Positions 22,231 to 53,318 of a DNA stretch of 64,000 bases are shown piece by piece. The notes below the pieces were generated by a model. It saw only the letters and a program-made list of their open reading frames with translations, was not told the DNA's origin and ran no database searches. This stretch comes from Streptomyces qinzhouensis (GTDB lineage Bacteria > Actinomycetota > Actinomycetes > Streptomycetales > Streptomycetaceae). How positions within the stretch are numbered: position 1 is the stretch's first letter; every line of letters starts with the position of its first letter. Position numbers and translations under genes: made by a program. Where the stretch lies: positions 7,812,001 through 7,876,000 of the forward strand of contig NZ_CP042266.1 of the NCBI RefSeq assembly GCF_007856155.1, written 5' to 3'.

Positions 22231-25200
22231 TCAGGCCGGGCCGAATTCGTGGTCCAGCGCATCGAACAGATCGTCGTCGGAGGCCGATGAGAGATCGTCC
22301 GCCCGCTCGGCGGGACGGGTGCGCTCCTCCCAGTCGCGCAGCAGCCGCCGGAGCCGGTCCGCCACGCCGTCCGGGTCTTCGGAGCTCTCGGATTCCTCGG
22401 AGTGCTGGGAGTACTCGGAGGCGAGCGCCGACAGGGTGCGCGCGAGACCGTCGATCTCCGCCAGTACGGGCGCCCCCGCCTTCCGTACCGCCCCCTCCGC
22501 CGCGGCGGAGGCGACCCGGGAACGGACATGCCCGGCCAGGATCTGCGGAGTGGGATGGTCGAAGACCAGCGTCGACGCCAGTGGCAGCCCCGTCGCCGCA
22601 CTCAGCCGATTACGCAGCTCGACGGCGGTCAGCGAGTCGAAGCCCAGATCCTTGAACGCCTCGTCGGCCGCTACCGCGTCGGGTCCCCGATGCCCCAGAA
22701 CGACAGCCACCTGTTCCCGGATCAGTTCCAGTACGACATCGTCCGCCTCGGCCTCCGTCAGCCCGGTCAGCCGCTCGGACAGTGAAGGGCCGGTTCCGGG
22801 CGCCGGACCGGACCGGGCCCCGGCCACCGGCGCGGCCGCGGGGCCCGTCCGTACCAGCGATCGCAGCACCACCGGAACCCCCGAGCCCCCGTCCGGGGCG
22901 GCGAGCGCCGCGGTGTCGAAACCGGCCGCGACGGTCACCGGCTCCGCCGAGCCCAGCGCGGCGTCGAACAGCGCCAGGCCCTCCGCGGACGACAGGGGCC
23001 GCAGCCCGCCCCGGCTCAGCCGGCGTACATCACCCTCCGTCAGATGGCCCGTCATCCCGCTGGCGTCCTCCCACAGACCCCACACCACGGACGAGGCCGG
23101 CAGCCCGGCCCGGTGCCGCTGCCCGGCCAGTGCGTCGAGAAACGCGTTCCCGGCCGCGTAGTTCGCCTGCCCCGGGCCGCCCAGGGTGCCCGCGGCCGAG
23201 GAGAACAGCACGAACGCCGCGAGATCCGCGCCCGCCGTCAGCTCGTGCAGATTCCAGGCCGCGTCCACCTTCGACCGCAGCACCGAGTCCAGCTGCTCCC
23301 CGGTCATCGACGTCACCGTCGCATCGCTGAGCGTCCCGGCGGCGTGGACGACGGCGGTGAGGGGGTGGTCAGTGGGGATGGTGTCGAGGAGGTTGCCGAG
23401 GGCGTGGGGGTCGGCGGTGTCGCAGGCGGTGATGGTGACGGTCGCGCCGAGTCGGGTGAGTTCGGCGCGGAGGGCTTCGGCCGCGGGGGAGTGGGGTCCG
23501 CCGCGGCTGACGAGGTGGAGGTGGGTGATGTGGTGTTCGGTGACGAGATGGCGGGCGAGGAGGCTGCCGAGGGTGCCGGTACCGCCCGTGATCAGCACCG
23601 TGCCCTCCGGGTCCAGCGGACGCGGCACCCTCAGCGCGACCTTCCCGACGTGCCGCGCCTGGCCCAGATGGCGAAAGGCCTCCAGGGCGCTCGCCGCATG
23701 CCAGGCGGTCACCGGCAGCGGACGCAGCGCACCCGTGTCGAACAGCGCCAGGATCTCGGCCAGCATGTTCCGGATCCGCTCCGGGCCCGCCTCCACCATG
23801 TCGAACTGCCGGTACCGCACCCCGGGACTGTGCCGTGCCGTCTCCGCCGCGTCGCGGACGTCCAGCTTGCCCATCTCGATGAACCGGCCGCCGCGCGGCA
23901 GCAGCCGGAGCGACGCGTCGACGAACTCCCCCGCCAGCGAATTGAGGACGACGTCCACGCCCCGGCCGCCGGTCGCCGACAGGAACGCGTCCGCGAACTC
24001 CGTATCGCGCGACGACGCGATGCGTTCCGGCGGCAGCCCCGCCCGGCGGAGCAGATCCCATTTGCCACGGCTCGCCGTTCCGTACACCTCGGCACCCCAG
24101 TGGTGCGCCAACTGGATCGCGGCCAGCCCCACACCACCGGCCGCCGCGTGGATCAGCACCGATTCGCCCGCGCCCAGGCCCGCCAGATCGGCCAGCCCGT
24201 AGTAGGCGGTCAGATACACCACGGGAACGACGGCGGCCCGCGGGAACGACCAGCCCTCGGGGATCCGCGCCACCAGCCGGCGGTCGGTCACCGCCACCGG
24301 GCCGACCCCGCCGGGGAAGAGCCCGAACACCCGGTCGCCGGGCCGCAGGTCCGTCACCTCGGCACCGACCTCCCGGACCACCCCGGCGGCCTCGCTGCCG
24401 ATCGGGGCGTTGCCCGGGTACATGTCCAGCGCGATGAGGACATCGCGGAAATTGAGTCCGGCCGCCCGGACGGAGACCCGGATCTGCCCCGGTTCCAGAT
24501 CCGCGCCGGCCGTGGCCGAGGGCAGCAGGGCCAGATTCTCCAGCGTGCCCCGGGGCCGGGCGTCGAGCACCCAGGGATCCGGTCCTTCGGGCACGGTCAG
24601 CGTGGAGTCGTCCCCGGCGGGCGCCAGCCGGGGGACGAACACGGCCCCCTCCCGTACGGCGAGCTGAGGCTCGTCGGCGTCGCGGATCGCCGAGACCGCC
24701 GCGGGCAGCGCCCGCAACGACTCCCCGGAACCGTCCAGGTCGAGCAGGGCGAAAGCGCCCGGATGCTCGGCCTGCGCCGAGCGCAGCAGACCCCAGAGCG
24801 CCGCCTCGCCCAGATCGGTGACCGTCTCACCGGGCCGGGCCGTCACCGCGCCCGCGGTCGTCACGGCCAGGGTCGCCCCGGCCAGCCGGTCGTCGGCCGC
24901 CCAGCCCTGGACCAGCTCCAGCGTCCGGTGGGCGAGAGCGCGGACCGTGTCCGGTACGGATCCGGCCTCGGACACCGGTACGGGAGCGGGCAGGGCCAGT
25001 ACCGCATCGGGCACGGGAGCGCCCGCGTTGAGGGCCCCGGCGAGACCGGCCAGATCCTCGTACACCTCCACCCGGCCGCCCGACGAGGCCAGTGCCTGCC
25101 GCAGCGGCTCGCCACGGTCGGCGGGGCCGATGACCGCGCAGCGCCGGGCCCGGACCGTGCCGCCCGCGGAGGACAGGGCCTCCCAGCCGAGCCGGTAGAG

Positions 25201-28200
25201 CCCGTTCCCGGTGTCCGGGGCACCGAGCGTACGCGCGAGCCGGGCCCGGGAGACCGTACGGACGGACAACTCCTCGGCGTACAGCACCGGGGCGCCGGAG
25301 GTGTCCGTGAGCCAGAGCTCCACCGAATCCTCGTCACGCGGAACGCACTGGACCCGTACTTCGGTGACCCCGGTGGCGAAGAACCGCACGTTCTTCCACG
25401 CGAACGGGATACGGATCAGCTCCGGGTCCGGTTCGGGACCGCTGAGTGGGAGGAGGTGGAGGGTGGTGTCGAGGAGGGTGGGGTGGAGGGTGTGGTGGTG
25501 GGGTGTGGTGTGGGTGGTGGGGTGTTGTTGGGTGTGGGCGTAGAGGGTTCCGTTGGGGTGTTGGTGGGCTTGGGTGAGTCCTTGGAGGGTGGGTCCGTAG
25601 GTGTATCCGTGGGTGTGGAGGGTGGGGTAGTGGTGGGTGAGGTTGAGGGGTGTGGTGTGGGGTGGGGGCCAGGTGGTGGGTGGTGTGGGGGGTGGTGTGG
25701 TGGTGGGGGTTGGGGTGAGGGTGGCGGTGGCGTGGTGGGTCCAGGGTGTGGTGTGGGGGTTGGGGGTGGTGTGGATGGTGAGGGTGCGTTGGTTTTGGGG
25801 GTTGGGGGGTGTGAGGTGTGCTTGGAGGTGGGTGGGTTGGTGGGGGTGGGTGGGTGTGGGGGTGTGGAGGGTGAGTTCGGTGATGTGGGGGGTGTGGTGT
25901 TGGGTGCCGATGTGGTGGGCGAGTTCGAGGTGGGTGGTGCCGGGGAGGAGGGGTGTGTTGAGGATGGTGTGGTGGGTGGTCCAGGGGTGGGTGTGGGGGG
26001 TGATGGTTCCGGTGTAGAGGTGGTGGTCGGTGGCGAGGGTGGTTTTGGTGGTGAGGATGGGGTGGGGGTTGGGTTGGGTGGTTGGGGTGGTTGGGGTGGT
26101 GGGTGGTGTGGGGGTGAGCCAGTAGGTGTGGTGTTGGAAGGGGTAGGTGGGGAGGGGGGTGTGGGGTGTGGCGGTGTTGGCATCCGTATTGGTGGTGGGG
26201 TGCCAGGTGGTGGGGGTGCCGTGGGTCCAGGTGTGGGCGAGGTTGGTGAGGTAGGTGGTGTGGTTGGGGTGGTTGCGGTGGAGGGTGTGGGTGGTGGTGG
26301 TTGTGGGGTGGGTGTCGGTGATGGTGGGGGTGAGGATGGGGTGGGGGCTGATTTCGATGGTGTGGAGGGGTTGGTTGGGGTGGTGGGTGGTGAGGTGGGT
26401 GAGGGTTTGGTGGAAGTGGACGGGGTGGCGGAGGTTGTCGTACCAGTAGGTGGGGTTGAGGGGGGTGGTGGGGGTGATTTGGGTGGTGGTGAGGGTGGAG
26501 TAGAAGGGGATGGTGGGGTGTTCCGGCACCACCCCCGCCAGCAGTTCGAGCAGCTCGTCGCGGATCGCGTCGACATGGGGCGAATGAGACGCGTAGTCCA
26601 CGGGGATCGTGCGCGCCCGGACCCCGTCCGTCCGGCATGCCGCCACGAAGTCGGCGACGGCCCCGGCGTCGCCGGAGACCACCGTGGAGACCGGGCTGTT
26701 CGTGGCCGCGATGCAGAGGGCCTCCCCGTACGGGCGCAGCCGCTCTTCCACCTCGTCGGCGGGGAGCGGAACGGAGGCCATTCCGCCCGTACCGGCCAGG
26801 GTGATGAGGGCCTTGCTGCGCAGGGCGGCGATTTTCGCGGCGTCGTGGAGGGTGAGGGCGCCGGCGATGTGGGCGGCGGCGATTTCTCCCTGGGAGTGGC
26901 CGATGACGGCGTCGGGGTGGACGCCGTGGTGTTGCCAGAGGCGGGCGAGGGAGACCATGACGGCGAAGAGGGCGGGCTGGACGACGTCGGTGCGGTCCAG
27001 GTCGGGTGCGGTGTCGGTGGTGTTGATCAGGTCCAGGAGTGACCAGTCGGTGTGGGGTGCCAGGGCGTGGTGGCAGGCGGTGAGGTGTTCGGCGAAGACC
27101 GGCTGGGTGTGCAGGAGTTCCCGGGCCATCCCGGGCCATTGGGAGCCCTGGCCGGGGAAGACGAACACGGTCGGCGGACGCGAGGCCGCCGCCGTCCCCC
27201 GGACCACATTCACCGCCTCGCCACCCCGCCCCACCACACCCAGCCCGGTGAGGAGTTCGGCCCGGTTCCCGCCCACGACGACCGCACGGTGCGGCAGCTG
27301 GGCCCGGGTCAGCGCGAGCGACCGGCCGGCCGCGGCGATGTCCGTGTCCGGATCGTCGGCCAGCATGGTCTGGAGCCGTACCGCGAGCTCCCGCAGCGCC
27401 CCTTCCGACTGCGCCGAGAACATCCAGGGCACGGCCGTGGATTCGCCGTCCGTACGGGTCGGCTCAAGGTCCACCGGGTCTGCTGTGTCGGTCGCTGCGG
27501 AGGGTTGTTCGACGATGAGATGGGCGTTGGTGCCGCTGATGCCGAAGGAGGAGACGGCGGCCCGCCTGGGCCGGCCGGTTTCGGGCCACGGCCGGGCGGC
27601 GGTGAGGAGCTGGAGCGAGTCGTCCCAGGGGGAGTGCGGAGTCGGCGCGTCGATATGCAGGGTCTGCGGGAGATGCCCGTACCGCATAGCCATGATCATT
27701 TTGATGAGGCTTGCGATGCCCGCGGCGGCCTGGGTGTGGCCGATATTGGATTTGATACTGCCGAGGTAGACGGGCTGTCCGGTGGGGCGGTTGGTGCCGT
27801 ACGTGTGGTGGAGGGCCTGGGCCTCGATGGGGTCGCCCAGTGTCGTACCGGTGCCATGGGCCTCGACCGCGTCGATATCGGTGTAGGTCAGCCCTCCACT
27901 GTCCAGCGCCTGCTGGATGACGCGCTCCTGCGCCGGGCCGTTGGGCGAGGTGAGCCCGTTGGACGCGCCGTCCTGGTTGATCGCGGACCCCCGGATCACC
28001 GCCAGGACCGGATGCCCGTTCCGCCGGGCGTCGGAGAGGCGTTCGAGGACGACGACCCCGACACCCTCGCCCCAGCCGGTGCCGTCGGCGGCCGCCGCGA
28101 ACGGCTTGCACCGCCCGTCGGGCGCCAGACCGCGCTGCCGGCTGAACTCGATGAACGTCGCCGGGGTGGCCATGACGGTGACACCGCCGGCCAGGGCGAG

Positions 28201-31200
28201 GGCGCATTCGCCGTTCCGCAGCGCCTGGGCCGCGAGATGGATCGCGACCAGCGACGACGAACAGGCCGTGTCCACCGACACCGCCGGGCCCTCGAGACCC
28301 AGGGCATAGGCCACGCGCCCCGACGCGACGCTTCCCGCACTGCCGTAGCCGAGATACCCCTCGACCTCCTCCGGCGTCGAAGCCGGGAACAGCATCCGGG
28401 AGGCGTAGTCGTTGTACATCACCCCGGCGAAGACTCCGGTACGGCTGCCGCGCAGCGCCGCCGGGTTGATGCCGGCGCGTTCGATCGCCTCCCAGGAGGT
28501 CTCCAGGAGCAGCCGCTGCTGCGGGTCGGTGGCCAGGGCCTCGCGCGGACTCATCCCGAAGAACTCGGCGTCGAAACGGTGCGCGTCGTAGAGGAAACCG
28601 CCCTCGCGTACATAGGTGTGCCCGGACCGGTCCGGGTCGGGGTCGTACAGCCGCTCCGTGTCCCAGCCCCGGTCGGTGGGGAAGGCGCCGATCGCGTCGA
28701 CGCCCTCCGAGACCAGCCGCCACAGCGCCTCGGGGGAGTCCACCCCGCCCGGATAACGGCAGCCGATACCGACCACCACGATCGGCTCGTCGTCGACCGG
28801 GAGCCGGGCCGCGGCGGGCCCGCCGGACCCGGCGGCGGCCGAAGGCGCGCCGGACAGCCGGTCGGCGAGCTCGGCGGCGAGCGCCGCCACGGTCGGACGG
28901 TCGAAGACCACGGTGGTCGGGAGCTGGAGTCCGGTCGCCTCGTTGAGGCGGTTACGGAGTTCGAGGGCGGTCAGCGAATCGAAGCCGAGTTCGTTGAGGG
29001 CCCGCTCGGTGTCGATGCCCTGGGCGTCGGTGTGGCCCAGCACCTCGGCCACCTGACCCCGTACCAGATCGAGCAGGGCGGTGGTCCGCTCCGCCGGGTT
29101 CAGCGGGGTCAGGGCCGCCGCGGGGGCGCCGCTCGCGGCCGTCCGGCGGCGCCCCGCCCCGAGCAGACCCCGCAGGAGTGGCCCCCCGGTGCCGGGCGGG
29201 GCCGCGCGGAGCGCCGCGAGGTCGAGCCGTACCGGCACCGCGAGAGGTACGTCCGCCGACAGGGCGGCGTCGAACAACGCCAGCGCGGTCCCCGTCGGCA
29301 GGGGCAGTACGCCCGACCGCCGGGCGCGCTGCCGGTCGGCCTCGGACAGACCACCGGTCATCGCGCTGCGTTCGGCCCAGGGACCCCAGGCCAGGGAGGT
29401 GCCGGGCAGCCCGGCGGACCGGCGTTCGGCGGCCAGGGCGTCGAGGAAGGTATTGGCGGCCGCGTAACCGGCCTGCCCCGCGCCGCCCAGGACGCCCGCC
29501 AGCGACGAGAACAGCACGAACGCCGTCAGCCCGGCGTCCGCGGTCAGTTCATGCAGCTGCCAGGCGCTGTCCGCCTTGGCCCGGAGCACGGTGTCGATCC
29601 GCTCGGGGGTGAGGCTCTCGAACACACCGTCGTCGAGGACGCCCGCCGTATGGATGACGGCCCCGAGCGGCCGCCGCGCCGACTGATCCCGCAGCAGGGT
29701 GGCGAGGGCGTCCGGGTCGGCCGTATCGCAGGCGGTGAGTACGGTGTCGGCGCCCAGCGCGGTCAGCTCCGCGAGCAACTCACCGGCGCCCGCCGCGGCC
29801 GGGCCGCTCCGGCTGGCCAGCAGCAGATGCCGGACACCGTGCTTTGTGACCAGATGACGGGCTAGCAGGCTGCCGAGCGTGCCGGTGCCGCCGGTGATCA
29901 GGACGGTGCGTTCCGGGTCGAACACGGGACCGGTGCCCTGGGCCGCGGGGGCGGTCCTGGCCAGCCGCGGCACCCGGACCGTGCCGTTCCGCAGGGCGAT
30001 CTGGGGCTCGCCGCTGCGCAGGGCGGCGCCGAGCACGGCCCGGGACGCCGGTGTTCCGTCGTCGTCGACGAGAACGATCCGGCCGGGGTGCTCGCTCTGG
30101 ACGGAGCGGAGCATCCCCCACAGCGGCGCCGAAGCGAGGTCGGTCCCGGTTCCGGGCGCCTCGTGGCCCGTACGTACGGCCACGCGGGTGAGGAGCGTCA
30201 GGGTGCTGTCCCCTCGGCGGTCGTCCGCGAGCCACTCCCCGACGAAGGCGAGCATCCGGCCGACGGCCGCCCGCACCCGCCCCGGCACGTCCGCGCCGCC
30301 GGGCCCCGCGGAAACGGCGGAGGCGACGGGCGCGGTGGGGACGGCGACCACCAGATCGGGCAGTGGTACGCCGGGCGGCGCCCCGGCCAGGACACCCGGA
30401 TCCGCCACGACGGGGGCCGGACCGCCCGCCTCCGGTACGCCGTCCAGGGACGGCCAGCGCACCTCGTACAGCGGCGCCGCGGAGCCGGGCCCGGCGGTGA
30501 TGCGTTCGACGGGGACGTCGTGCAGCGCGAGGGAGGCGACCTCGGCCACCGGCCGTCCCTCGCCGTCCGCGAGGTCCAGCGCCCAGGTGCCGTCGCCGTC
30601 GGCGCCCGGCCGGACCCGGACCCGCAGCGCGGTCGCGCCGTCCGCCCGCAGAGTGACGCCCGACCAGGAGAACGGCAGGCGTACCCGATCCGGCCGCTCC
30701 TCCCCGGCGCCCCTGGCCGTATCGTCCAGGAAGAGGGGGTGCAGCGCCGCGTCCAGCAGGGCGGGATGCAGGGCGAACCGCCCCGCGCGGTCGCGGGCCT
30801 CCTCCGGGAGCCGTATCTCGGCCCACAGGGTGCTGCCCGAACGCCAGACCGCGCGCAGCCCCCGGAAGGACGGGCCGTAGCCGTGGCCCCGTTCGGGCAG
30901 GCGCTCGTACAGCCCGGACACATCGACGGGGACCGCGTCCCGCGGCGGCCACACCGTCAGGTCGGTATCGGTGCCGGGGGGCGGTGCGCCGGCCGGGGCG
31001 AGCGTGCCCGTGGCATGCCGCTCCCACGGGGCGTCGTCGCCGTCGGTGTGCGCATGGACGGTGAAGGCCCGGTGGCCCTTCCCGTCGGCGGGTTCCAGCA
31101 GAAGCTGGATCAGGCAGCCCTCGTCCGGGACGGCCAGGGGTGCCTCCAGGACCAGTTCCTCGACCGTGCCGCAGCCGACGCGGTCACCGGCGTGCAGGGC

Positions 31201-34167
31201 CAGTTCGACGAGGGCGGCGCCGGGCAGGACCGGCGTACCCGCCACCGTGTGGTCGGCCAGCCAGGGCAGGGCCCCGGGCGTCAGCCGGCCGGTGAACACC
31301 TGACGTCCGCCGTCGGCCAGCGACAGTTCGCCGCGCAGCAGCGGATGGCCGGCACTGCGCAGACCCGCGGCGGCGAGGTCCGCGGGCTCGTCGGCCTCCA
31401 GCCAGTAGGACGCACGCTGGAAGGGGTATGTCGGCAGGGGCGCCGGAGGGCCCTCCACGCGGGGCGGAGCGGGGGACGCCGGGACGAGAGCGGCCAGGTC
31501 GACGGGCACACCGCTCGTGTGCAGCCCGGCGGCCGCCGTCACCGCCGCCGTCGGCTCCGGAAGGCGTCGGTCGAGCAGAGCGGCCGGTACGGCCGTGTCA
31601 CCCACCGCGGCGGCGGCGAGCGCCGTCAGCGTGTTGTCCGGGCCCAGCTCGACGTATGCGGTCACCCCGTCCTCCCGCAGGGCCGTGACCGCCTGGTGGA
31701 ACCGGACCGTCTCCCGGGCCTGCCGGACCCAGTAGTCGGGCGACGCGAGTTCCTCGAAGGCCGCCGGCCGGCCGGTGAGGGTGGAGACCAGGGGAACGAC
31801 GGGCGGCCGGAACCGTATCTCCGCCGCCACGGCGCGCAGTTCGGCCAGGACCGGATCCATCAGCGCGGAGTGGAAGGCCCGGGTGACAGCCAGTCGGCGG
31901 GTCCGGTGCCCCGACTCCTCCAGACGGCGCGCGAATGCCTCGACGGCGGACTCGTCGCCGGACACCACGGTCGCCTCGGCGCCGTTCACGGCCGCCGGCC
32001 AGACCCGGCCCGCCCACGACCCCTCGTCGAGGAGCGCGGCCACCTCCGCCTCCCCGGCGCGCACGGAGAGCATGGCGCCGCCCGCGGGAAGCTCCTCCAT
32101 CAGCCTGCCGCGGGCCGCGACCAGCGCACAGGCGTCGTCGAGGTCGAGGACCCCGGCGGCATGGGCCGCGGCGATCTCCCCGACCGAGTGGCCCGCCACC
32201 CGGTCCGGCCGGACACCCCACGCGCCCAGCAGGCGGTGGAGCGCGGTCTGGAGGGCGAAGAGGGCGGGCTGGGCGTACCGGGTGTGGTGGATGAGGGGGT
32301 CGTCGCCGGGGTCGTCGGTGAACATCACCTCTTGGAGGGGCCGGGGGAGGTGGGGGTCGAGACGTCGGCAGATGTCGTCGAGGGCGTCGGCGAAGACGGG
32401 GAAGGCGGCGTGCAGTTCACGTCCCATACCGGGGCGCTGACTCCCCTGGCCCGAGAACAGGAACGCGACCCGGTGCTCACCCGCGCGGGCCGTGCCGCGC
32501 ACCGTCCCCGGCACCCGCTCCCCGCGGGCCAGGGCGTCCAGCCCCGCGCCGATCTCCTGCCGGGTCCCGCCGACGACGGCCGCGCGGTGCGCGAACGACG
32601 GACGGGTCGCCGCCAGCGCATGGGCGACAGCGGCCGGGTCCGGTTCGGGGCGGGCGTCGAGATGGGCCCGGAGCCGGACGGCCTGGGCCCGCAGGGCCGG
32701 TTCGGTACGGGCGCTGAGCAGCCACGGTACGGGCACATCGGTCCGGGTCGGCTCAAGGTCCGCCGGGTCCGGGGTGTCCGTCGGCGCGGGGGGCTGTTCG
32801 ACGATGAGATGGGCGTTGGTGCCGCTGATGCCGAAGGAGGAGACGGCGGCGCGTCGGGGCCGGCCGGTTTCGGGCCAGGGGCGGGTGGTGGTGAGGAGCT
32901 GGAGGGAGTCGTCCCAGGGGGAGTGCGGGGTGGGTGCGTCGATATGGAGGGTTCTGGGCAGCTCCCCGTACTCCATCGCTGTGATCATTTTGATGAGGCT
33001 TGCGATGCCCGCGGCGGCCTGGGTGTGGCCGATGTTGGATTTGATGCTGCCGAGGTAGAGGGGCTGTCCGGTGGGGCGGTTGGTGCCGTAGATGTGGTGG
33101 AGGGCCTGGGCCTCGATGGGGTCGCCCAGCGTCGTACCGGTGCCATGAGCCTCGACCGCGTCGATATCCGCGGGCGCCAGCCCCGCACTCTCCAGCGCCT
33201 GCTGAATCACCCGCTGCTGCGAGGGGCCGTTGGGCGCGGTCAGCTGACTGCTGGCGCCGTCCTGGTTGACCGCGGACCCCCGGATCACCGCCAGGACCGG
33301 ATGCCCGTTCCCGCGGGCGTCCGACAGCTTCTCCAGCACCACCATGCCGACGCCCTCCGCCCAGCCGGTGCCGTCGGCGGCCGCCGCGAACGGCTTGCAC
33401 CGCCCGTCGGGCGCCAGACCGCGCTGCCGGCTGAACTCGACGAAGGTGTTCGGGGTCGCCATGACGGTGACACCACCGGCCAGCGCCAGAGCGCATTCGC
33501 CGTGCCGCAGCGCCTGGGCCGCGAGATGGATCGCGACCAGCGACGACGAACAGGCCGTGTCCACGGTGACCGCCGGGCCTTCCAGACCGAGCGTGTAGGC
33601 CACCCGGCCCGAGGCGATACTGCCCGCGCTGCCGGCACCGATGTACCCCTCGAAGCCCTGCGGGGGCCGGGTGATCCGGGAGGCGTAGTCGTTGTACATC
33701 ACCCCGGCGAAGACTCCGGTACGGCTGCCGCGCAGCGCCGCCGGGTTGATGCCGGCGCGTTCGATCGCCTCCCAGGAGGTCTCCAGAAGCAGCCGCTGCT
33801 GCGGGTCGGTGGCCAGGGCCTCGCGCGGGCTCATCCCGAAGAACTCGGCGTCGAAACGGTGCGCGTCGTAGAGGAAACCGCCCTCCCGGGTATAGGAGGT
33901 GCCCGGATGGTCGGGGTCGGGATGGTAGAGCGCGTCGAGGTCCCAGCCGCGGTCGGTGGGGAAACCGCCGACCGCGTCCACCTCGTCGTGCACCAACTGC
34001 CACAGCGCCTCGGGGGAGTCCACCCCACCCGGATACCGGCAGCCGATACCGACGACCGCGATCGGTTCATGACGCTCGGACTCGTACTCCCGCAGGCGCC
34101 GGCGGGCCTGGTGGAGATCGGCGGTCACCCGCTTGAGGTAGTCGCGGAGCTTGTCCTCGTTGGCCAT
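22231..34167 (-). CDS. Type I PKS A: two modules, KS-AT-DH-KR-ACP-KS-AT-DH-ER-KR-ACP
   Basis: 3978 residues. An N-terminal docking coiled coil ([20 protein letters not shown]) implies an upstream PKS partner not in this window.
Module 1: KS Cys near 204; AT GHSVG near 660 and RAFH near 763 (malonyl-CoA); [12 protein letters not shown] near 975; KR GGTGTLG near 1427 with LDD and Tyr; ACP GFDSL near 1730. It should give an enoyl unit.
Module 2: KS Cys near 1967; AT GHSQG near 2421 and YASH near 2525 (methylmalonyl-CoA); DH His near 2727; ER with [10 protein letters not shown] near 3345; KR GGTGTLG near 3530 with LSD instead of LDD; ACP GFDSL near 3842. It should give a fully reduced methyl-branched unit.
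No loading domain is present. Its DH1-KR1 boundary is the source of most fragments in the mosaic at 49839-50063. Confidence 0.95.
23336..23604. repeat. Inter-module repeat R5, copy in PKS A module 2
   Basis: Partner of 12498-12766. The codons just beyond it change LDD to LSD. Confidence 0.8.
25444..26541. repeat. Inter-module repeat R1, copy in PKS A module 2
   Basis: Partner of 13661-14758. Sequence on both sides differs sharply from the PKS C copy, so the ends are abrupt, as expected for gene conversion or recent duplication. Confidence 0.9.
26824..27226. repeat. Inter-module repeat R2, copy in PKS A module 2
   Basis: Partner of 15038-15440. Confidence 0.85.
32071..32454. repeat. Inter-module repeat R6, copy in PKS A module 1
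   Basis: Partner of 9277-9660. Confidence 0.8.
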
Positions 34168-40569: not shown

Positions 40570-41501
40570 GCGACCGCCTCCTTCAGCCGTGGGTCGATCA
40601 CCGGATAGAGCCAGTCGACGAGGATGTTGACGACGACGAACAGCGCGGCGGACGCGATCACCAGACCGGTCACCACGGGCAGGTCACGGCTGTTGATGGC
40701 GGCCGTCATCAGCCGTCCCAGCCCTTGCCGGCTGAACACCGTCTCGATGATCACGGTGCCGCTGAGCAGGGCGCCGATGGTCCAGCCCGACAGGGTGACC
40801 AGGGGCACCAGCGAATGCCGCAGGGCGTGCCGGAGCCTCAGGTCGGTCTCGGTGGCGCCCCGGGCCCGGGAGGCCAGCGCGTAGGGCTGCCCCAGGGAGT
40901 GCTCCATCGACTCGCGCAGCACCTGGGCGAACACCCCGACCAGGGACAGCGCCAGGGTCACCGCGGGCAGCACCAGGGCCCGGACGCCCTCGCCGCCCGC
41001 CGCCGGGAAGAGCTGCCAGCGGAAGGACAGCAGCGCGAGCAGCAGCACACCCACCCAGAACGCGGGGGTGGAGATGAGCACCAGCTCGACCGAGGCCGAG
41101 AGCCGGCGCAGTCCGGGACGGCGGCCCGCGGTGGCCACCGCCAGCGGCACCGCGAGCGCACAGCCCAGCGCGAAGCCGGTCAGCGCGAGCCAGAGGGTGG
41201 GCGGCGCCTGCTCGGAGAGCAGTTCGGTGACCGGCCGCTGGAGTTGGTACGAGGTCCCCAGATCACCGGTCAGCAGCCGGCCCATGAACGACGCGTACTG
41301 CGCCGCCAGTGGGCGGTCGAGCCCCAGGTCCTTCCGGACCTCGGCCACCGCCTCCGGGGAGGTCGCCGTGCCGCCCAGCATCACCTCGGCCGGATCCCCG
41401 GGCGTCAGATGCAGGGCGGCGAACGCGGCGGACGCCGCGCCCAGGACCACCAGCACACCCAGCAGCAGCCGCCGGGCGAACCAGCTCAGCAGAGGGTTCA
41501 T
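40566..41501 (-). CDS. ABC permease, DppB/OppB type
   Basis: 311 residues. It has an N-terminal helix, then the periplasmic OppB signature LTPGDPAEVMLGG and DLGLDRPLAAQY, then five more helices with SRARGATETDLRLRHALRHS as the coupling loop. The ATG overlaps the stop of the solute-binding protein by 4 bases, so the transporter subunits are translationally coupled. Confidence 0.93.
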   Translation of the reverse strand: MNPLLSWFARRLLLGVLVVLGAASAAFAALHLTPGDPAEVMLGGTATSPEAVAEVRKDLGLDRPLAAQYASFMGRLLTGDLGTSYQLQRPVTELLSEQAPPTLWLALTGFALGCALAVPLAVATAGRRPGLRRLSASVELVLISTPAFWVGVLLLALLSFRWQLFPAAGGEGVRALVLPAVTLALSLVGVFAQVLRESMEHSLGQPYALASRARGATETDLRLRHALRHSLVPLVTLSGWTIGALLSGTVIIETVFSRQGLGRLMTAAINSRDLPVVTGLVIASAALFVVVNILVDWLYPVIDPRLKEAVA

Positions 41502-43123
41502 GATTCCTCCCGCCGGGCGTCCCGGAAGACGGGGTAGCCGCTGGGGTCCCAGCGCAGTCCGCGCAGGCCCGAGACGTACCCGACGGTGGTCGCCGGCACA
41601 TAGACGGGGATCGCCAGCGCCCGGTCGAGGACCCGGCGCTGGGCGCGCTCGTAGGCCGCGGCCCTGGTCGGCCCGGAAGCGCCGGCGATCGCCCGGTCCA
41701 GCGAGGCGTCCAGCACCGGATCGGAGACGCGGAACAGATTCGACCCGCCCTTCTCCGCGGTCTTCCCGGAGCCGAAGTAGTGGCGCAGGATGTCGGGTTC
41801 GGCCCGGGTGAAGCTGAAGGCGAGCACGTCGGCGTCGCCCGAACCGGCCCGGGTGGCGAACTGTCCGGGGTCCAGCCTGGTGTAGCGGAGTTCGATGCCC
41901 GCCCTGCGGGCCTCGGCCTGGATGCCCTGGCCCATCACATCCCGGCCGTCCCGGGCCAGGAAGTCGATATAGGGCCAGAACAAGGAGAGGCGCTTACCGT
42001 CCTTGACCCGGTAGCCGTCGCCGTCGCGGCGCTCCCAGCCCGCCGCGTCGAGCAGCCGGCCGGCCTCCTCGGGATCGTGCTCCCAGGGCGGCCGGGCCGC
42101 GTGGTGCAGAGTGGTGGGCGAGAGCGGTCCATAGGCCCTGATGCGCTGCCCGTGGTAGACGGCGTCCACCAGATCCGTCAGCCGGATCGCCTTCGTGAGC
42201 GCCCGGCGCACCCGGATGTCCGCCAGCGGCCCCCGGTTGGGGTTGAGGAACAGCGTCCACGGCAGCCCGGGATTGTCGGTGCGGTGCACCTCGTAGCCGC
42301 TGGAGCGCCGCAGCGCGGCGACGTTCCTCGGCGGTACGTTGTCCACCGCGTCCGCCTGGCCGCTGGTCAGCAGCCCCAGCCGGACGGACTGCTCGGAGAC
42401 GAAGAGATAGGTGATCTCCGCGATCCGCGGTGGCGCGCCCCGGCCCTCGGTGCCGGGCCCCCACCGGTAGTCGGGGTTGCGGCGCAGTGTGATGCTGTGC
42501 TTGCGCGACCAGGAGACCAGCTCGTACGGACCGGATCCGACCGGACGGGTGCACAGTTCCCCGGCCGGTTTCGCCAGCGCCCGGGGCGACTGGATGCCCA
42601 GATAGGCGGTGCTGAGGGCCTGGAGGAACGCCGCGTTGGGCCGGGCGAGTTCCACCCGGGCGGTCAGCTCGTCCACCACCACGGTCCGCCGGTAACCCTC
42701 CAGCAGGCTCCCGGCGTACATCGACCGTGTCTTCGGGTTCACCGCGTGGTCGAGCGTCGCCCGTACCGCGGTGGCGTCGAACCGGGCCCCGTCGTGGAAG
42801 CGCACCCCCGGACGCAGCCGGAAGGTGTAGGCCAGACCGTCGGCGGATCGGGCCCACCGCTCGGCGAGCCAGGGCCGGAAGGTGCCGTCCCGGTCCATCG
42901 AGATCAGCGAGTCATGGGTGTTGCGGACCAGGGCGGCGGTGGCGTCGAGCGGGCTGACCTGCGGGTCGAGACAGTCCGGTTCGGTTTCGACGGCGTAGAC
43001 GAGCGCGTCGGCCGACCGTGCCGCACCGGCCGAGAGGCCGCATCCGGAGACCGCCGTCGCGAGGACCAGACACCCGATGAGGACCCGTCTCCACGGGCCG
43101 CCCGCTGAACCACTGCTGAACAC
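41498..43123 (-). CDS. Solute-binding lipoprotein, family 5 (peptide/nickel type)
   Basis: Extracytoplasmic substrate-binding protein of the SBP_bac_5 family, about 541 residues. The signal peptide ends in the lipobox VSGC, so the mature protein is anchored by a lipid on Cys. The family start ETEPDCLDPQ and the later LAERWARSADGLAYTFRLRP and GVRFHDGARFDATAV are classic. A GTG at 43129 is in frame, but the GTG at 43123 has GGGAGG at proper spacing and is preferred. It heads the transporter and tetronate-type gene run. A comparable importer (AbyF1-F4) accompanies the abyssomicin genes (family knowledge). A 42-bp piece of this gene recurs at 49839-49880. Confidence 0.92.
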   Translation of the reverse strand: MFSSGSAGGPWRRVLIGCLVLATAVSGCGLSAGAARSADALVYAVETEPDCLDPQVSPLDATAALVRNTHDSLISMDRDGTFRPWLAERWARSADGLAYTFRLRPGVRFHDGARFDATAVRATLDHAVNPKTRSMYAGSLLEGYRRTVVVDELTARVELARPNAAFLQALSTAYLGIQSPRALAKPAGELCTRPVGSGPYELVSWSRKHSITLRRNPDYRWGPGTEGRGAPPRIAEITYLFVSEQSVRLGLLTSGQADAVDNVPPRNVAALRRSSGYEVHRTDNPGLPWTLFLNPNRGPLADIRVRRALTKAIRLTDLVDAVYHGQRIRAYGPLSPTTLHHAARPPWEHDPEEAGRLLDAAGWERRDGDGYRVKDGKRLSLFWPYIDFLARDGRDVMGQGIQAEARRAGIELRYTRLDPGQFATRAGSGDADVLAFSFTRAEPDILRHYFGSGKTAEKGGSNLFRVSDPVLDASLDRAIAGASGPTRAAAYERAQRRVLDRALAIPVYVPATTVGYVSGLRGLRWDPSGYPVFRDARREES

Positions 43124-43228
43124 TCCCACCTCCCACTGCCGTACACGCTTGCCCTCCGAGGGTCACCACCCGGCCCTGGACCGGACTAAGGGCGGTCTAA
43201 AGCCGAACCGGCCCGTATGAACGGCACA

Positions 43229-47047: not shown

Positions 47048-49201
47048 TCAGCCCAGTCCCGGGACGGTGGAGACCACCAGATCGATCAGCTTGATGCCGA
47101 GGAACGGCAGGATCAGGCCGCCGAGACCGTACAACGCCAGATTGCGGCGGAGCAGCCCGTCGGCGGACGCCGGGGTCCAGCGCACGCCCCGCAGGGCCAG
47201 CGGGATCAGGGCGATGATGATCAGGGCGTTGAAGATGATGGCCGAGGTGATCGCCGATGTCGGACTCCGCAGCCCCATGATGTTCAACGCCCCCAACTGC
47301 GGATAGGTGCCGGTGAACATCGCGGGGATGATGGCGAAGTACTTCGCCACGTCGTTGGTGATGGAGAAGGTGGTCAGCGCGCCCCGGGTGATCAGGAGCT
47401 GCTTGCCGATCTCCACGATGTCGATGAGCTTCGTGGGATCGGAGTCGAGGTCCACCATGTTCCCGGCCTCCTTGGCGGCCGAGGTGCCGGTGTTCATCGC
47501 CACGCCGACGTCGGCCTGGGCGAGCGCCGGGGCGTCATTGGTGCCGTCGCCGGTCATGGCGACCAGCCGGCCGCCTTCCTGCTCCCGCTTGATGAGGGCG
47601 AGCTTGTCCTCCGGGCCGGCCTCGGCGAGGAAGTCGTCGAGGCCCGCCTCGGTGGCGATGGCCCTGGCCGTCAGCGCGTTGTCCCCGGTGACCATGACGG
47701 TACGGATGCCCATCCGGCGCAGTTGCCCGAAGCGTTCGCGGATGCCGTCCTTGACGACGTCCTTGAGATGGACGATCCCCAGGACCCGCGGCCCGTTCTC
47801 GTCGTGGACGGCGACCAGCAGGGGAGTGCCCCCGCTCGCGGCGATACCGTCCGACCAGGCCCGGGCCTGATCCGGTGCGGAGCCGCCGCGCTGCCGGACC
47901 CAGGTGATCACCTCCGCGGCGGCACCCTTGCGGATCGCGCAGGCCGTGCCGTTGTTCCAGCACAGATTGATGCCGCTCATCCTGGTACGGGCGCTGAACG
48001 CGGTGAAGTGAGGGTTCGCCAGCTCCTGCGGCGAGGGCGGCCGCAGCCCGAACTCCTTCTCCGCCAGCTCGACCACGGACCGGCCCTCCGGTGTCTCGTC
48101 GGCCAGTGAGGAGAGCTGCGCCGCGTCGGCGAGCTTCGCGGCCGGCACGCCCGGCAGCGGGACGAAGCCGACCGCCCGCCGGTTGCCGTGGGTGATCGTC
48201 CCCGTCTTGTCGAGCAGCAGGGTGTTGACATCGCCCGCGGCCTCCACCGCACGGCCGGAGAGGGCGATCACATTGCGCTGGAGGAGCCGGTCCATGCCGG
48301 CGATGCCGATGGCGGAGAGCAGCGCCCCGATCGTCGTGGGAATGAGGGTGACCATGAGGGCGACGAGGACGGTGGTGGACTGCGCGGCGCCCGCATGGGC
48401 CGCCATCGGCTGAAGCGTGACCACGATCAGGACGAAACCTATGGTCAGCGCTGCCAGCAGAATGTTGAGCGCCACCTCGTTGGGCGTCTTCTGCCGGCGT
48501 GCCCCTTCGACCAGGGCGATCATCCGGTCGAGGAAGGAGTGCCCGGGCCTGGCCGTGATCCGGACGACGATCCGGTCGGACAGGACCGCCGTCCCTCCGG
48601 TCACCCCGGACCGGTCACCGCCCGCCTCCCGGATGACCGGGGCGGATTCGCCGGTGACGGCCGACTCGTCGACCGCCGCGATCCCGTCGACGACCTCACC
48701 GTCGGCCGGGACCACGCCGCCCGCCTCGACGACGACGAAGTCGAAGAGCCGCAGTTCGGCCGCCGATACGGTCTCCGACTCGGCCCGGATCGGGTCGATG
48801 CCGTAGGTCCAGTGCCGCAGCCGCCGGGCCGTCAGCCCCGTACGGGAGCGGCGCAGCGAGGCGGCGTGCGCCCGGCCCCGGCCCTCGGCGACGGCCTCGG
48901 CGAGATTGGCGAAGAGCACCGTGAGCCAGAGCCAGCCGCTGATCAGCCAGGTGAAGACCGAGGGGTGGACCAGGGCGGACAGGGTGGTGAGCAGGGAGCC
49001 GACCGCGACGACGAACAGCACCGGATTACGGACCAGGGCCCGGGGATGCAGTTTGCGCACCGCCTCCGGCAGCGCGGCGATCAACTGTCCGGTGTCGACC
49101 GCTCCGCCGGGGACGGAGCGCCGGCGCCGGGACGACCGGGGGCGCTCCGGGGGGAGGCCCTCAGCCGTGGGCGGCGCCTTCGGGGACGCGGTGGGGAGCA
49201 T
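47048..49201 (-). CDS. kdpB: KdpB, ATPase subunit of the high-affinity K+ pump, without KdpA/C
   Basis: 717-residue P-type ATPase. The phosphorylation motif [12 protein letters not shown], the TGES motif ([11 protein letters not shown]), [14 protein letters not shown] and [18 protein letters not shown] are intact. The last part ([32 protein letters not shown]) is specific to KdpB. Normal size. The normal operon is kdpFABC. Here the 1.1 kb upstream contains no KdpA and the gene ends 62 bases from a convergent gene, leaving no room for KdpC. It may be an orphan from a split or partly deleted operon, or may act with subunits encoded elsewhere. An array of 11-bp-spaced heptamers lies 230-300 bases upstream and is the likely control element. 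Confidence 0.92.
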
Positions 49202-49429
49202 GCGGGGTCACCTTCGGCGACGGGCCGGCGCCGGGACGGCGGACGGCGGGGTGGGTCGAGTGACGGCCGGGGTCGGTGCCCACCGGCCGGGCATCGCGGT
49301 CGATGCCCGGCCGGTGGACCGTCGCGTGTCGTGCGCCGGGACCGGTCGGGCCACTGACCTCTCCGGCGACGAACGGCCGCCCCGGAATCTAGGCCCGCCC
49401 CGGCGCCCCGGAACCGGCCTTCCCGCCTC

Positions 49430-49502
49430 TTTGACGGTGCCCTGACGCTTTCTTGGCGCCGCTGCGGACGGCCCGTCAAAACCGCGTCAGAGAGGCGTCA
49501 AA
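49430..49502. promoter_or_regulatory. Two inverted triplets of 11-bp-spaced heptamers upstream of kdpB
   Basis: On the plus strand TTTGACG (49430), CCTGACG (49441) and CTTGGCG (49452) are exactly 11 bases apart. After 15 bases come CGTCAAA (49474), CGTCAGA (49485) and CGTCAAA (49496), again 11 apart, which is the same motif inverted. One-turn spacing of direct heptamers is typical of OmpR-family response regulators (KdpE, PhoP) and SARPs. The position suggests control of kdpB and perhaps a divergent transcript. Confidence 0.65.
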
Positions 49503-49838
49503 GCCGCCCGGCGGCCGGGGCCGGCCCGGCCGGTGGCCCTCGGCGGTCTTCGCCGCCCGTCCGGCATGCCCGGGGCGACCTCGCATCATCGCCGGGGGCT
49601 GATGAAGCGGACCGTCCCCAGCGCCTCCCGCCGGAGTTCCGCCGCGGCCGCTGACAGAACTCCGTCGGGAGGCGGCTCCGTTCCGCGTGCCGCCTTCCGC
49701 GCGTCCGGGCGAGGGCGAGCCGCCGTCTCCGGCGCCTGCCGGAGAGCGGGCGGAGCCCGTACGGCACGCGCCGCCGAACGCGCCGTCCGCCTCGAGCGCG
49801 GCAGCGTCGCCCCCTCGGTGGCACCGCTCGCCCGCAGC

Positions 49839-50063
49839 CCCGGGCGGTCAGCTCGGCCACCACCACGGTCCGCCGGTAACGCCTGCCCGAACGGGGCCAC
49901 GGCTACGGCCCGTCCTTCCGGGCCCGGATCGCCCTGCGGAACGACACAGTCCGGGTGCCGCGGTCGCGGGCCTCCTCCGGGAGCCGTATCTCGGCCCACA
50001 GGGTGCACCGGTCCCGTGTCCGACCCGGAACGCACCGTCCTGATCACCGGCGGCACCGGCACG
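49839..50063. repeat. Mosaic of five short fragments copied from the polyketide cluster
   Basis: The whole 225 bp can be assigned to five sources. 49839-49880 copies 42655-42696 (binding-protein gene, same strand, 1 mismatch). 49880-49922 copies 30861-30903 inverted (PKS A DH, exact). 49923-49963 copies 29965-30005 inverted (PKS A, 3 mismatches). 49959-50006 copies 30786-30833 in direct orientation (exact). 50006-50063 copies 29878-29935 inverted (PKS A KR start, 1 mismatch). Fragments of 41-58 bp abut or overlap by 0-5 bases. No product is expected. Confidence 0.9.
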
Positions 50064-50301
50064 TCCGGTCCGCTCGGGCCGGAGTGGCCCCTGTGGCGTC
50101 CGGCTCCCGCGCGGGAGCGTCCGTCGGCGGGCGGCGGCCCGGCCCCGGCGGCGGTCCTGACCGAGGCCGCCGGGTCCGGGACGCCGGCCGCTCGCGGTGG
50201 TGCGGCCGGTGGGCGTGGTCTCGTGCGTCATGGTTCCCCTGCGTCCGGCCCGGCGGTCGGGCCAACTCGTCGTCGGCCTCCAGTGCGCGGGAACGCGCGA
50301 G

Positions 50302-50973
50302 TCAGTCCGGGACGACGCGGCAGAGCACGGCGAGGACCGCGAGGCGGATGCGGTTGTCCCGGCCCGTCTTCGCCATCAGATTCGCCACATGCGTCTTCAC
50401 CGTGGTGACGCCCAGATGCAGCCGGTCGGCGATCTCCTGGTTGGACAGGCCCGCCCCGACCAGCCCGAGCACCTCCCGCTCCCGCGGGGTGACCGCCGGG
50501 AGCGCCGGGGGTGCCGGGGCCGCCGGGGCCGCGGGAGGCATGGCGGGCGCCGGGGCCGTCACCGCCCGGTCGACGAGCCGGGCCAGGGCGTCCCGGCTGA
50601 ACGGGGCTTCCCCGTGCGCCGCCCGGCGCACGGCGTCCAGGATCTCGGCCGGCGGGGTGTCCTTGACCAGAAAGCCGCAGGCCCCGGCGGCCAGCGCCGG
50701 ATACAGATGCTCGTCGTCGTCGAAGGTGGTGAGCGCGACGATCCGGGCGGCCGGGCGGTCGGCGAGGATACGGCGGGTAGCCGCGATGCCGTCCGTACCC
50801 GGCATGCGCAGGTCCATGAGGACCACATCGGGGGTGAGCCGGGCGGCCAGCCGGACCGCCTCGGCGCCGCCCGGCGCCTCGCCGCACAGCTCGATGTCCT
50901 GGGCCTGCTCGAACAGCATCCGCAGCCCCATCCGTACCAACTGCTGGTCGTCGACGACGAGAACCCGGATCAC
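50302..50973 (-). CDS. NarL/LuxR-type response regulator
   Basis: 223 residues. The receiver domain has Asp in VVLMDLRMPGTDG near residue 53, an acidic pair near VVDDQQ, and a conserved Lys in LVKDTPPAEIL. After a Pro/Ala linker comes the LuxR-type HTH VTPREREVLGLVGAG, then LSNQEIADRLHLGVTTVKTHV. It is phosphorylated by the kinase encoded just upstream, whose stop overlaps its ATG by 4 bases. It probably controls transcription of nearby or distant genes. No target site is evident. Confidence 0.93.
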   Translation of the reverse strand: MIRVLVVDDQQLVRMGLRMLFEQAQDIELCGEAPGGAEAVRLAARLTPDVVLMDLRMPGTDGIAATRRILADRPAARIVALTTFDDDEHLYPALAAGACGFLVKDTPPAEILDAVRRAAHGEAPFSRDALARLVDRAVTAPAPAMPPAAPAAPAPPALPAVTPREREVLGLVGAGLSNQEIADRLHLGVTTVKTHVANLMAKTGRDNRIRLAVLAVLCRVVPD

Positions 50974-52253
50974 CGGCGGGCCTCCGGCACCGGTACCGCC
51001 GCGGGCAGTTCGGCCGTGAGCCGCCAGCCCGGGTCCGCCGGGCCCGCGTCGAGCGTGCCGCCGAGCAGCGCCACACGTTCCCGCATACCGATCAGGCCGT
51101 GGCCACCGCCGGCTCCGCCGCTCCGGCCGCCCCGGGCACCGGCGGCTCCGTCTCGGTCACCGTCGTGGCCGTCGTGGCCGGAGCCCGGGGCCGGTGGCCG
51201 CGGCCCTTCGCCGCCGTCGTCACGGATCGTCAGCCGTACGGTGCCGCCGTCCATCCGTACGCTCAACTCGGCCCGCGCCCCCGGACCGCCGTGCCGGGCG
51301 GCGTTGGCCAGCCCCTCCTGCGCCAGCCGCAGGACGGCGAGGCCACGGACCGCGTCGAGCCCGGCGACGGCGGGATCCACCGACGCGGACACGGCCGGTC
51401 CGGCGCCGCGGGCCCGCTCCACCACCGCCGCCAGCGCGTCCGGCAGCGCCCCCTCGGCGATCAGCGCCGCCGCCGCGGGCTCCGGATCGCCGGGGGTCCG
51501 CAGCACGGCCACCAGCCGCCGCAGATCGGCCAGCGCCGCCCGGCCGCTGTCGTGCAGATCGTCGAGGACGCCCGTGATCCGGGGATCGGTGCCGCCGGCC
51601 GGCCCGCCCGGGCCCGCGGCCATGACGACATGCCGGGCCACCCCCACGCGCAGCACCATCGACGACACATGATGGGCCACCAGATCGTGCAGCTCCCGGG
51701 CGACCGCCGTGCGCTCCGCGGCCCGGGCGGCCGCCGACTCCTGCTCGGCCCGCAGGGCCTGCCGAGCCGCCGCCGCCCGGGCGTGCGCCGCCGCCTCGCG
51801 GGTCAACCGGACGTACGACCCCAGGAACAGCGGCAGCCCCGCGACCACCGCCGCCTTGAAGAGCACCGGCAGCAACTGGCCCGGCAGATCGCCGAAGCGG
51901 TTCACGACGACGGCGAGCGCCAGCACCGCGCAGCCCGCGGCGGGGACCCGCCCCGACTGCCGTACCGCCAGCTCGAAGAGGGCGACCGCGGCCACCACCT
52001 TCAGTGAGGGCACGACGCCCGCGCCGAGCGCGTGCGCCGTCACCAGCAGCGCCGACTGCGCCACCAGCGAGGCCGCGGCCCACCGCCACCCGGCCAGACA
52101 CAGCACCAGCCCGGCCGCCGCCAGGGCCCACTCCCCGTTCCCCGACGGCCGCCGCAGCAACAGGAAGTCACCGACCAGCGCGGCGCCGTACACCAGGACG
52201 CGCGCGCCCCGGCGGCGATGGTCGAAGACGAGGTCGGTCCGGAGCCGGTTCAT
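50970..52253 (-). CDS. Membrane sensor histidine kinase (HisKA_3 family)
   Basis: 427 residues from the ATG at 52253. The N-terminal half has about five hydrophobic segments (GARVLVYGAALVGDFLLL to LFKAAVVAGLPLFLGSYV), a membrane sensor with little extracellular loop. Then come a coiled linker, the HisKA_3 box ARELHDLVAHHVSSM with the phospho-His, an N box RLAQEGLANAARHGG, and G box HGLIGMRERVALLGG. A Gly/Asp/His-rich insert (about 30 residues) sits between N and G boxes. Forms a two-component pair with the coupled response regulator. Divergent from the SDR gene at 52386. Confidence 0.93.
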   Translation of the reverse strand: MNRLRTDLVFDHRRRGARVLVYGAALVGDFLLLRRPSGNGEWALAAAGLVLCLAGWRWAAASLVAQSALLVTAHALGAGVVPSLKVVAAVALFELAVRQSGRVPAAGCAVLALAVVVNRFGDLPGQLLPVLFKAAVVAGLPLFLGSYVRLTREAAAHARAAAARQALRAEQESAAARAAERTAVARELHDLVAHHVSSMVLRVGVARHVVMAAGPGGPAGGTDPRITGVLDDLHDSGRAALADLRRLVAVLRTPGDPEPAAAALIAEGALPDALAAVVERARGAGPAVSASVDPAVAGLDAVRGLAVLRLAQEGLANAARHGGPGARAELSVRMDGGTVRLTIRDDGGEGPRPPAPGSGHDGHDGDRDGAAGARGGRSGGAGGGHGLIGMRERVALLGGTLDAGPADPGWRLTAELPAAVPVPEARR

Positions 52254-52385
52254 CCGGCCCACGATAGGCCGGTACCCGGGCGCCGCGGCTCCTGCCGTGG
52301 GAGGAGGCCGGCTCCTTCCACCGGCCGGGAACCCCGGCCCGTGGAAGGAACCGGACACCCCCGCCGGACTGCGAGCGTGACCGCC

Positions 52386-53318
52386 ATGGAGAAGCACACC
52401 AGCACGAACTCCGGCCGCCCCGGGCGCCGCGCACTGCTCGGCACGGCCGCCGCCCTCGGCCTCGCGGGCACCGCCGGAACCACCGCCCACGCCGCCGGAC
52501 CGGTCCGGAACCACGCCCCGGCCGGACGCTTCCGGGGCAGTTCGGTCCTCATCACCGGAGGCACCTCGGGCATCGGCCGGGCGACGGCGATCGCCTTCGC
52601 CGCGGCCGGGGCCTCCGTCGGATTCTGCGGCCGCCGCACCGACCTCGGCCGCCGGGTCGAACGCGAGATCACCGACGCCGGGGGAGAGGCCGTCTACATC
52701 CGGGCCGACATCCGCAGCCCCGAGGAGACCCGGGACTTCGTGGACCGGGTCGCCGCCCGCTACGGCGGGATCGACATCGCCTTCAACAACGCCGGCATCG
52801 GCGGCGGCGGACCGCCGCACGAGCTGAGCGTCGAGCAGTGGGACTCCATCCTCACCACCAACGCCCGCGGTGTGTTCCTCGCCCTCAAGTACGAGATCCC
52901 GCATATGCTCCGCGCGGGCCGCGGCGTGATCATCTGCACCTCGTCGTCGGCCGCCGAACAGGCCCGTCCGGACAGCGCCGCCTACACCGCGAGCAAACGG
53001 GCCGTCCAGGGCCTGGTGAAGTCCGCGGCCCTGGCGTACGGGCCGAAGGGCATCAGGATCAACACCCTGCTGCCCGGCACCACCGACACCCCCTTCGTCC
53101 GCCCGCCGGGCATCCCCGACCCTGACTGGTCCCGCTACAAGGCGGCGTTCGGGCCGCTCAACGTCGACGGGCTGGAACGGATGGCGGAACCCGAGGAGAT
53201 CGCCCGCGCGGTGCTCGGACTCGCCTCCCCGGACTTCCCCTATATGACGGGGGCCTCGGTCGCGGTGGACGGCGGCGCCGGCGCGGGCCGCAAACTGGTC
53301 CACCCGCCGCGCAACTGA
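52386..53318 (+). CDS. Short-chain dehydrogenase/reductase with Tat-type signal
   Basis: 310 residues. A classical SDR fold: TGGTSGIGRATAIAF (NADP-binding) near 56-70, NNAGIGGGG near 135, Ser in TSSSAAEQ, catalytic YTASK near 203, and a C-terminal YMTGASVAVDGGAG. The first 40 residues, GRPGRRALLGTAAALGLAGT plus a short Ala-rich stretch, look like a twin-arginine signal. This is rare for an NAD(P)-dependent enzyme, whose cofactor would have to be exported with the folded protein. Several actinomycete SDRs carry similar leaders (family knowledge, uncertain). The substrate is unknown. Its 3' end is duplicated in tandem and it converges on the NRPS operon. Confidence 0.85.
   Translation: MEKHTSTNSGRPGRRALLGTAAALGLAGTAGTTAHAAGPVRNHAPAGRFRGSSVLITGGTSGIGRATAIAFAAAGASVGFCGRRTDLGRRVEREITDAGGEAVYIRADIRSPEETRDFVDRVAARYGGIDIAFNNAGIGGGGPPHELSVEQWDSILTTNARGVFLALKYEIPHMLRAGRGVIICTSSSAAEQARPDSAAYTASKRAVQGLVKSAALAYGPKGIRINTLLPGTTDTPFVRPPGIPDPDWSRYKAAFGPLNVDGLERMAEPEEIARAVLGLASPDFPYMTGASVAVDGGAGAGRKLVHPPRN

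Follow-up and report, generated by a model that had tools for sequence, protein, structure and literature searches.

A mosaic of at least seven short own-genome copies in a Streptomyces chromosome arm, probably a compound end-joining scar

We identified a mosaic of at least seven shards over 433 bp (49807-50239), located between two genes in the right chromosome arm of Streptomyces qinzhouensis, in which 372 of the 433 bp have a source in the same genome. The mosaic is probably a compound end-joining scar, and it has no evident function. Plain positions are those of the window, the whole stretch of 64,000 nucleotides that was analysed (C1:7,812,001-7,876,000); positions with the prefix C1 are those of the one contig, 8,146,484 bp in length, that makes up the genome. 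The insert is DNA from elsewhere in the same genome, and all seven sources are kept (Table 1).

Table 1. Shards of the mosaic, their sources in the window and the neighbouring genes
Feature	Position	Strand	Description
P-type ATPase-like gene, left neighbour	47048..49201	-	E1-E2_ATPase and HAD hydrolase domains
Shard T	49807..49838	+	terminal inverted repeat, C1:8085097-8085128 (+) = C1:61357-61388 (-), copied exactly (32/32)
Shard S	49839..49880	+	41/42 copy of 42655-42696
Source of shard S, still in place	42655..42696	+	within solute-binding-protein gene 41498-43129 (-), SBP_bac_5
Shard A	49880..49922	-	43/43 copy of 30903-30861; residues 1089-1103, in the dehydratase domain of the PKS
Source of shard A, still in place	30861..30903	-	PKS gene 22231-34167 (-)
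Shard B	49923..49963	-	38/41 copy of 30005-29965; PKS residues 1388-1401, ahead of the ketoreductase domain
Source of shard B, still in place	29965..30005	-	PKS gene 22231-34167 (-)
Shard C	49959..50006	+	48/48 copy of 30786-30833; antisense to residues 1112-1128, in the dehydratase domain of the PKS
Source of shard C, still in place	30786..30833	+	PKS gene 22231-34167 (-)
Shard D	50005..50063	-	58/59 copy of 29936-29878; start of the ketoreductase domain, PKS residues 1411-1430
Source of shard D, still in place	29878..29936	-	PKS gene 22231-34167 (-)
Source-less stretch, 61 bp	50064..50124	.	untemplated, from a lost source, or native
Shard E	50125..50239	+	112/115 (97%) copy of C1:964546-964660
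Response-regulator-like gene, 223 aa, right neighbour	50302..50973	-
Histidine kinase, after the response-regulator-like gene	50970..52253 (simple gene call)		frame 50970-53303 with HisKA_3

The original prediction described a tract built wholly from five shards of the polyketide cluster. These five (S, A, B, C and D) were re-found by BLAST and by base-by-base comparison, in the shuffled order, mixed orientation and near-exact form (0 to 3 changes each) in which they had been described. A BLASTN search against the own genome, proposed with the prediction, recovered the shards together with two further sources, which revise the extent of the tract and its restriction to the polyketide cluster: a copy of the terminal repeat lies on its left and a copy of sequence from 0.96 Mb on its right. 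The terminal inverted repeat shows no difference between the two chromosome ends over the 19,968 bp compared. The source of shard S is ∼7 kb away, those of A to D fall within a 1-kb stretch of the PKS gene ∼20 kb away, around domains PS-DH (residues 1068-1219) and adh_short (residues 1421-1580), and the source of shard E is the 5′ end, start codon included, of a frame of 321 aa on the minus strand that has no Pfam family. Across the seven alignments 8 of 380 aligned bases are mismatched: none in T, A and C, one each in S and D, and three each in B and E.

The search of the genome with 50064-50124 found no source, the next best match having an E-value of 0.04 (best 40 of 84 candidates scored). 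To the left of the mosaic, own-genome matches of 49690-49806 are no better than an E-value of 8.5e-4 at 78%. Those of the remaining gap sequence, as far left as 49190, are no better than an E-value of 0.001, apart from shard T and the self-match of an inverted repeat at 49280-49317. These searches scored at most the best 40 candidates each, a depth at which very short pieces could escape. A second inverted repeat in the gap lies at 49622-49674.

The shards are far above chance. Shard B is the weakest at 58.0 bits, followed by T at 63.9, and the others score 75.8-204 (58.0-109 for the five shards originally claimed), while the top score of 100 Markov-randomised gaps against the 503-kb arm was 46.1 bits. 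As a positional control, the 503,096 bp of the right arm were compared with themselves for matches of 28-400 bp at ≥92% identity between non-coding and coding sequence. The 73 matches comprise 63 in a CRISPR-like array that was called partly coding, 8 in the mosaic, two of which are additional occurrences of shard D's ketoreductase motif, and 2 isolated ones. The left-arm sample (420,000 bp) gave one isolated match, and 200,000 bp from each of two other genomes (G031 and G058) gave none. Thus no second cluster like the mosaic was found in 503 kb of right arm, 420 kb of left arm and 200 kb of each of the two other genomes, each sample being compared within itself, over ∼1.3 Mb in total and with our own simple gene calls.

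Three other repeats were noted in this chromosome. The CRISPR-like array, at C1:7607043-7607970, has 16 rows of one 28-bp repeat at 60-bp spacing with 32-bp variable parts. A coding and a non-coding stretch 1.5 kb apart (C1:8013374-8013563 and C1:8014870-8015058) share a 190-bp match at 95%. The pair C1:8000432-8000643 and C1:8044795-8044985, with pieces of 38-47 bp at 95-100%, was considered as a second mosaic and rejected, as it is a diverged colinear repeat, in inverted orientation, of two non-coding stretches.

The mosaic is private to this genome among the 392 of the genus that were searched. At E 1e-12 the query 49795-50250 hit one of them, its own, with the best two candidates per genome scored. 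A conserved or mobile element, whose presence elsewhere in the same order would have counted against a scar, is rejected on the 0 of 391 other genomes matched at this threshold and depth, at which weak or partial copies could be missed. The wider query 48800-51100 matched 342 of the 392 genomes, own included, at E 1e-30, again with two candidates scored in each. Among the matches listed, those outside the own genome fall within the ATPase gene (48800-49154) or start at or beyond 50286, and none of them covers the mosaic. The query 49201-50310 gave matches at E 0.001 in 97 of 101 genomes, and most of the matches listed are in the ketoreductase motif of shard D. A foreign source was also rejected, since a phage search gave no match. 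Sixty-nine plasmid records matched, and the best 20 of these comprise 17 with the match in type I PKS genes and 3 S. clavuligerus records at 49368-49461; no place on a plasmid reaches 80% coverage.

Zero genes were called between 49201 and 50302 by our simple gene calls, in line with the gene-free gap of the original prediction. Within this gap, the 94 bp at 49368-49461 are 78% similar to unannotated sequence on three large S. clavuligerus plasmids, and part of the gap to the left of the mosaic is therefore older sequence. The five best relatives of the flanking regulator, which we take from its motif to be of the LuxR type, are from Streptomyces (76-79% protein identity). The regulator/histidine-kinase operon (50288-53306) is common to five relatives, and in each pair compared the DNA homology ends sharply on both sides. 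No DNA neighbours are shared among these five relatives at E 1e-20, and the uninterrupted site was not found there. From these boundaries the operon looks as if it were moving as a cassette.

An assembly or library artefact, in which chimeric reads would have entered the consensus, is conceivable in GC-rich DNA with repeated PKS sequence nearby. Such an origin looks quite unlikely: the genome is one contig, the sources lie in four regions of which two are far off, and the copies differ from their sources at the bases counted above, whereas a fresh chimera would not.

The joints bear on how the pieces came together. The five shard-shard joints share 0 (T/S), 1 (S/A), no (A/B), 5 (B/C) and 2 (C/D) bases, which for the joints among the five original shards agrees with the predicted overlaps of 0-5 bp. 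At the A/B joint up to 4 bases are untemplated or hold a mismatch. Microhomology is not significantly enriched at the joints, the shared bases summing to 8 as compared with a mean of 4.28 at random joints (P = 0.107; 20,000 draws). Lengths within 0 to ∼6 shared bases are compatible with an end-joining scar rather than diagnostic of one, because they are not above those of random joints.

The same joints help to weigh serial template switching of the MMBIR/FoSTeS type, in which a repair or replication polymerase would have moved from template to template, copying a short stretch of each, rather than ready-made fragments being ligated. Shared bases are not needed in end joining with capture, while template switching should need them at every switch; two of the five shard-shard joints have none, and the total does not exceed that of random joints. 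The joints that share 2 and 5 bases would fit such switching, as would the alternation of A to D between two spots of one PKS gene, where the copied pieces are 27 and 28 bp apart within each spot, a pattern seen after the fact. Copies must also have been made, since the sources are kept, but the sources would equally have survived if fragments of sister DNA had been ligated in. On this balance we consider template switching unlikely as the origin of the mosaic.

We also considered whether the mosaic is a functional element, either a new chimeric gene or an antisense or decoy RNA against the PKS and transporter genes. A 127-aa ORF on the minus strand (49848-50231) takes its start codon from shard E and crosses D, C, B and A into S. 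However, its length was reached or exceeded in 2353 of 5000 shuffled shard orders, and the shards lie in mixed orientations relative to their source genes. A chimeric gene was rejected: the ORF has no homologue at E 0.001 among 2371 candidates (query without the first codon), its length is expected by chance and no gene was called. No Rfam family reaches its cut-off in the gap, and the gap has no terminator and no sigma-70-like promoter, judged by the sigma-70 consensus only. The regulatory or decoy role raised in the original prediction thus finds no support in gene calls, ORF homology, Rfam or promoter and terminator searches, and a function of this kind is highly improbable.

An end-joining scar is the best-supported reading because Ku and two LigD-type polymerases are present and because published S. 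ambofaciens scars carry similar endogenous inserts. The genome encodes one Ku; of the two LigD-type polymerases, one is encoded next to Ku and the other elsewhere. A classical LigD_N domain is absent from this genome, a point against the reading, as is the 61-bp stretch without a source. According to the account in PMC5124664, the end-joining genes of Streptomyces are split, with kuA, ligC, polK and polR as the core set. In the proposed sequence of events, the right chromosome arm would have suffered a double-strand break that was healed with several short DNA pieces incorporated at the joint. The PKS gene would have contributed four of these, and the terminal repeat, the solute-binding-protein gene and the region at 0.96 Mb one each. 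All pieces may have entered in one event, their source presumably being broken or degraded DNA, either the cell's own or that of a sister, with Ku, the LigD-type polymerases and a ligase as the probable joining machinery. The original prediction had proposed templated filler from end joining by Ku/LigD. Its end-joining part is borne out by Ku, the two polymerases and the S. ambofaciens precedent, while microhomology, not being above chance, lends no support to the filler being templated.

What is already known in Streptomyces is the capture of single inserts at induced breaks. A literature search, judged mainly by titles, found no natural multi-piece scar in a bacterium, which is weak evidence of novelty. 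A natural chain of at least seven pieces would show that bacterial end joining builds compound patchworks outside the laboratory. Such a chain also offers a signature by which genomes can be searched for similar scars, and it makes capture versus template copying testable. We suggest tentatively, as a broader idea that is more doubtful than the scar itself, that Streptomyces can heal one break by chaining many own-genome pieces of 30-120 bp, the bacterial equivalent of a chromosome being locally shattered and reassembled. Fossils of such events might then persist in the arms of natural isolates and give rise to new intergenic DNA and chimeric reading frames.

The mosaic resembles the complex templated insertions, or filler DNA, of eukaryotes in its several short local and distant pieces, mixed orientation and short shared sequences at the joints. 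Models of eukaryotic filler DNA lean on polymerase theta or on break-induced replication, and we know of no bacterial counterpart of polymerase theta. In Sinorhizobium, extra DNA is likewise taken up by end joining, but as the work is cited in PMC8627663 that DNA is foreign, whereas the seven pieces of the mosaic are endogenous. The closest precedent is the repair of I-SceI breaks in S. ambofaciens (Hoff et al. 2018, PMC5869714), for which the passages on scars report 1-6 nt of microhomology in 50% of cases and some added nucleotides. Five insertion events in total, from 30 bp to 18.8 kb, are described there, and three central-site clones carry inserts, two of them (42 and 83 bp) from the vicinity of the break and one (30 bp) from a terminal-repeat transposase gene. 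Those scars and the mosaic are alike in the similar size of their endogenous inserts, in their nearby and terminal-repeat origin and in having few or no shared bases at the joints. They differ in that the S. ambofaciens scars were induced in the laboratory and are described in those passages as single inserts, with no mention of a multi-piece chain, whereas the mosaic lies in a natural genome, chains at least seven pieces and has diverged from its sources by 2%.
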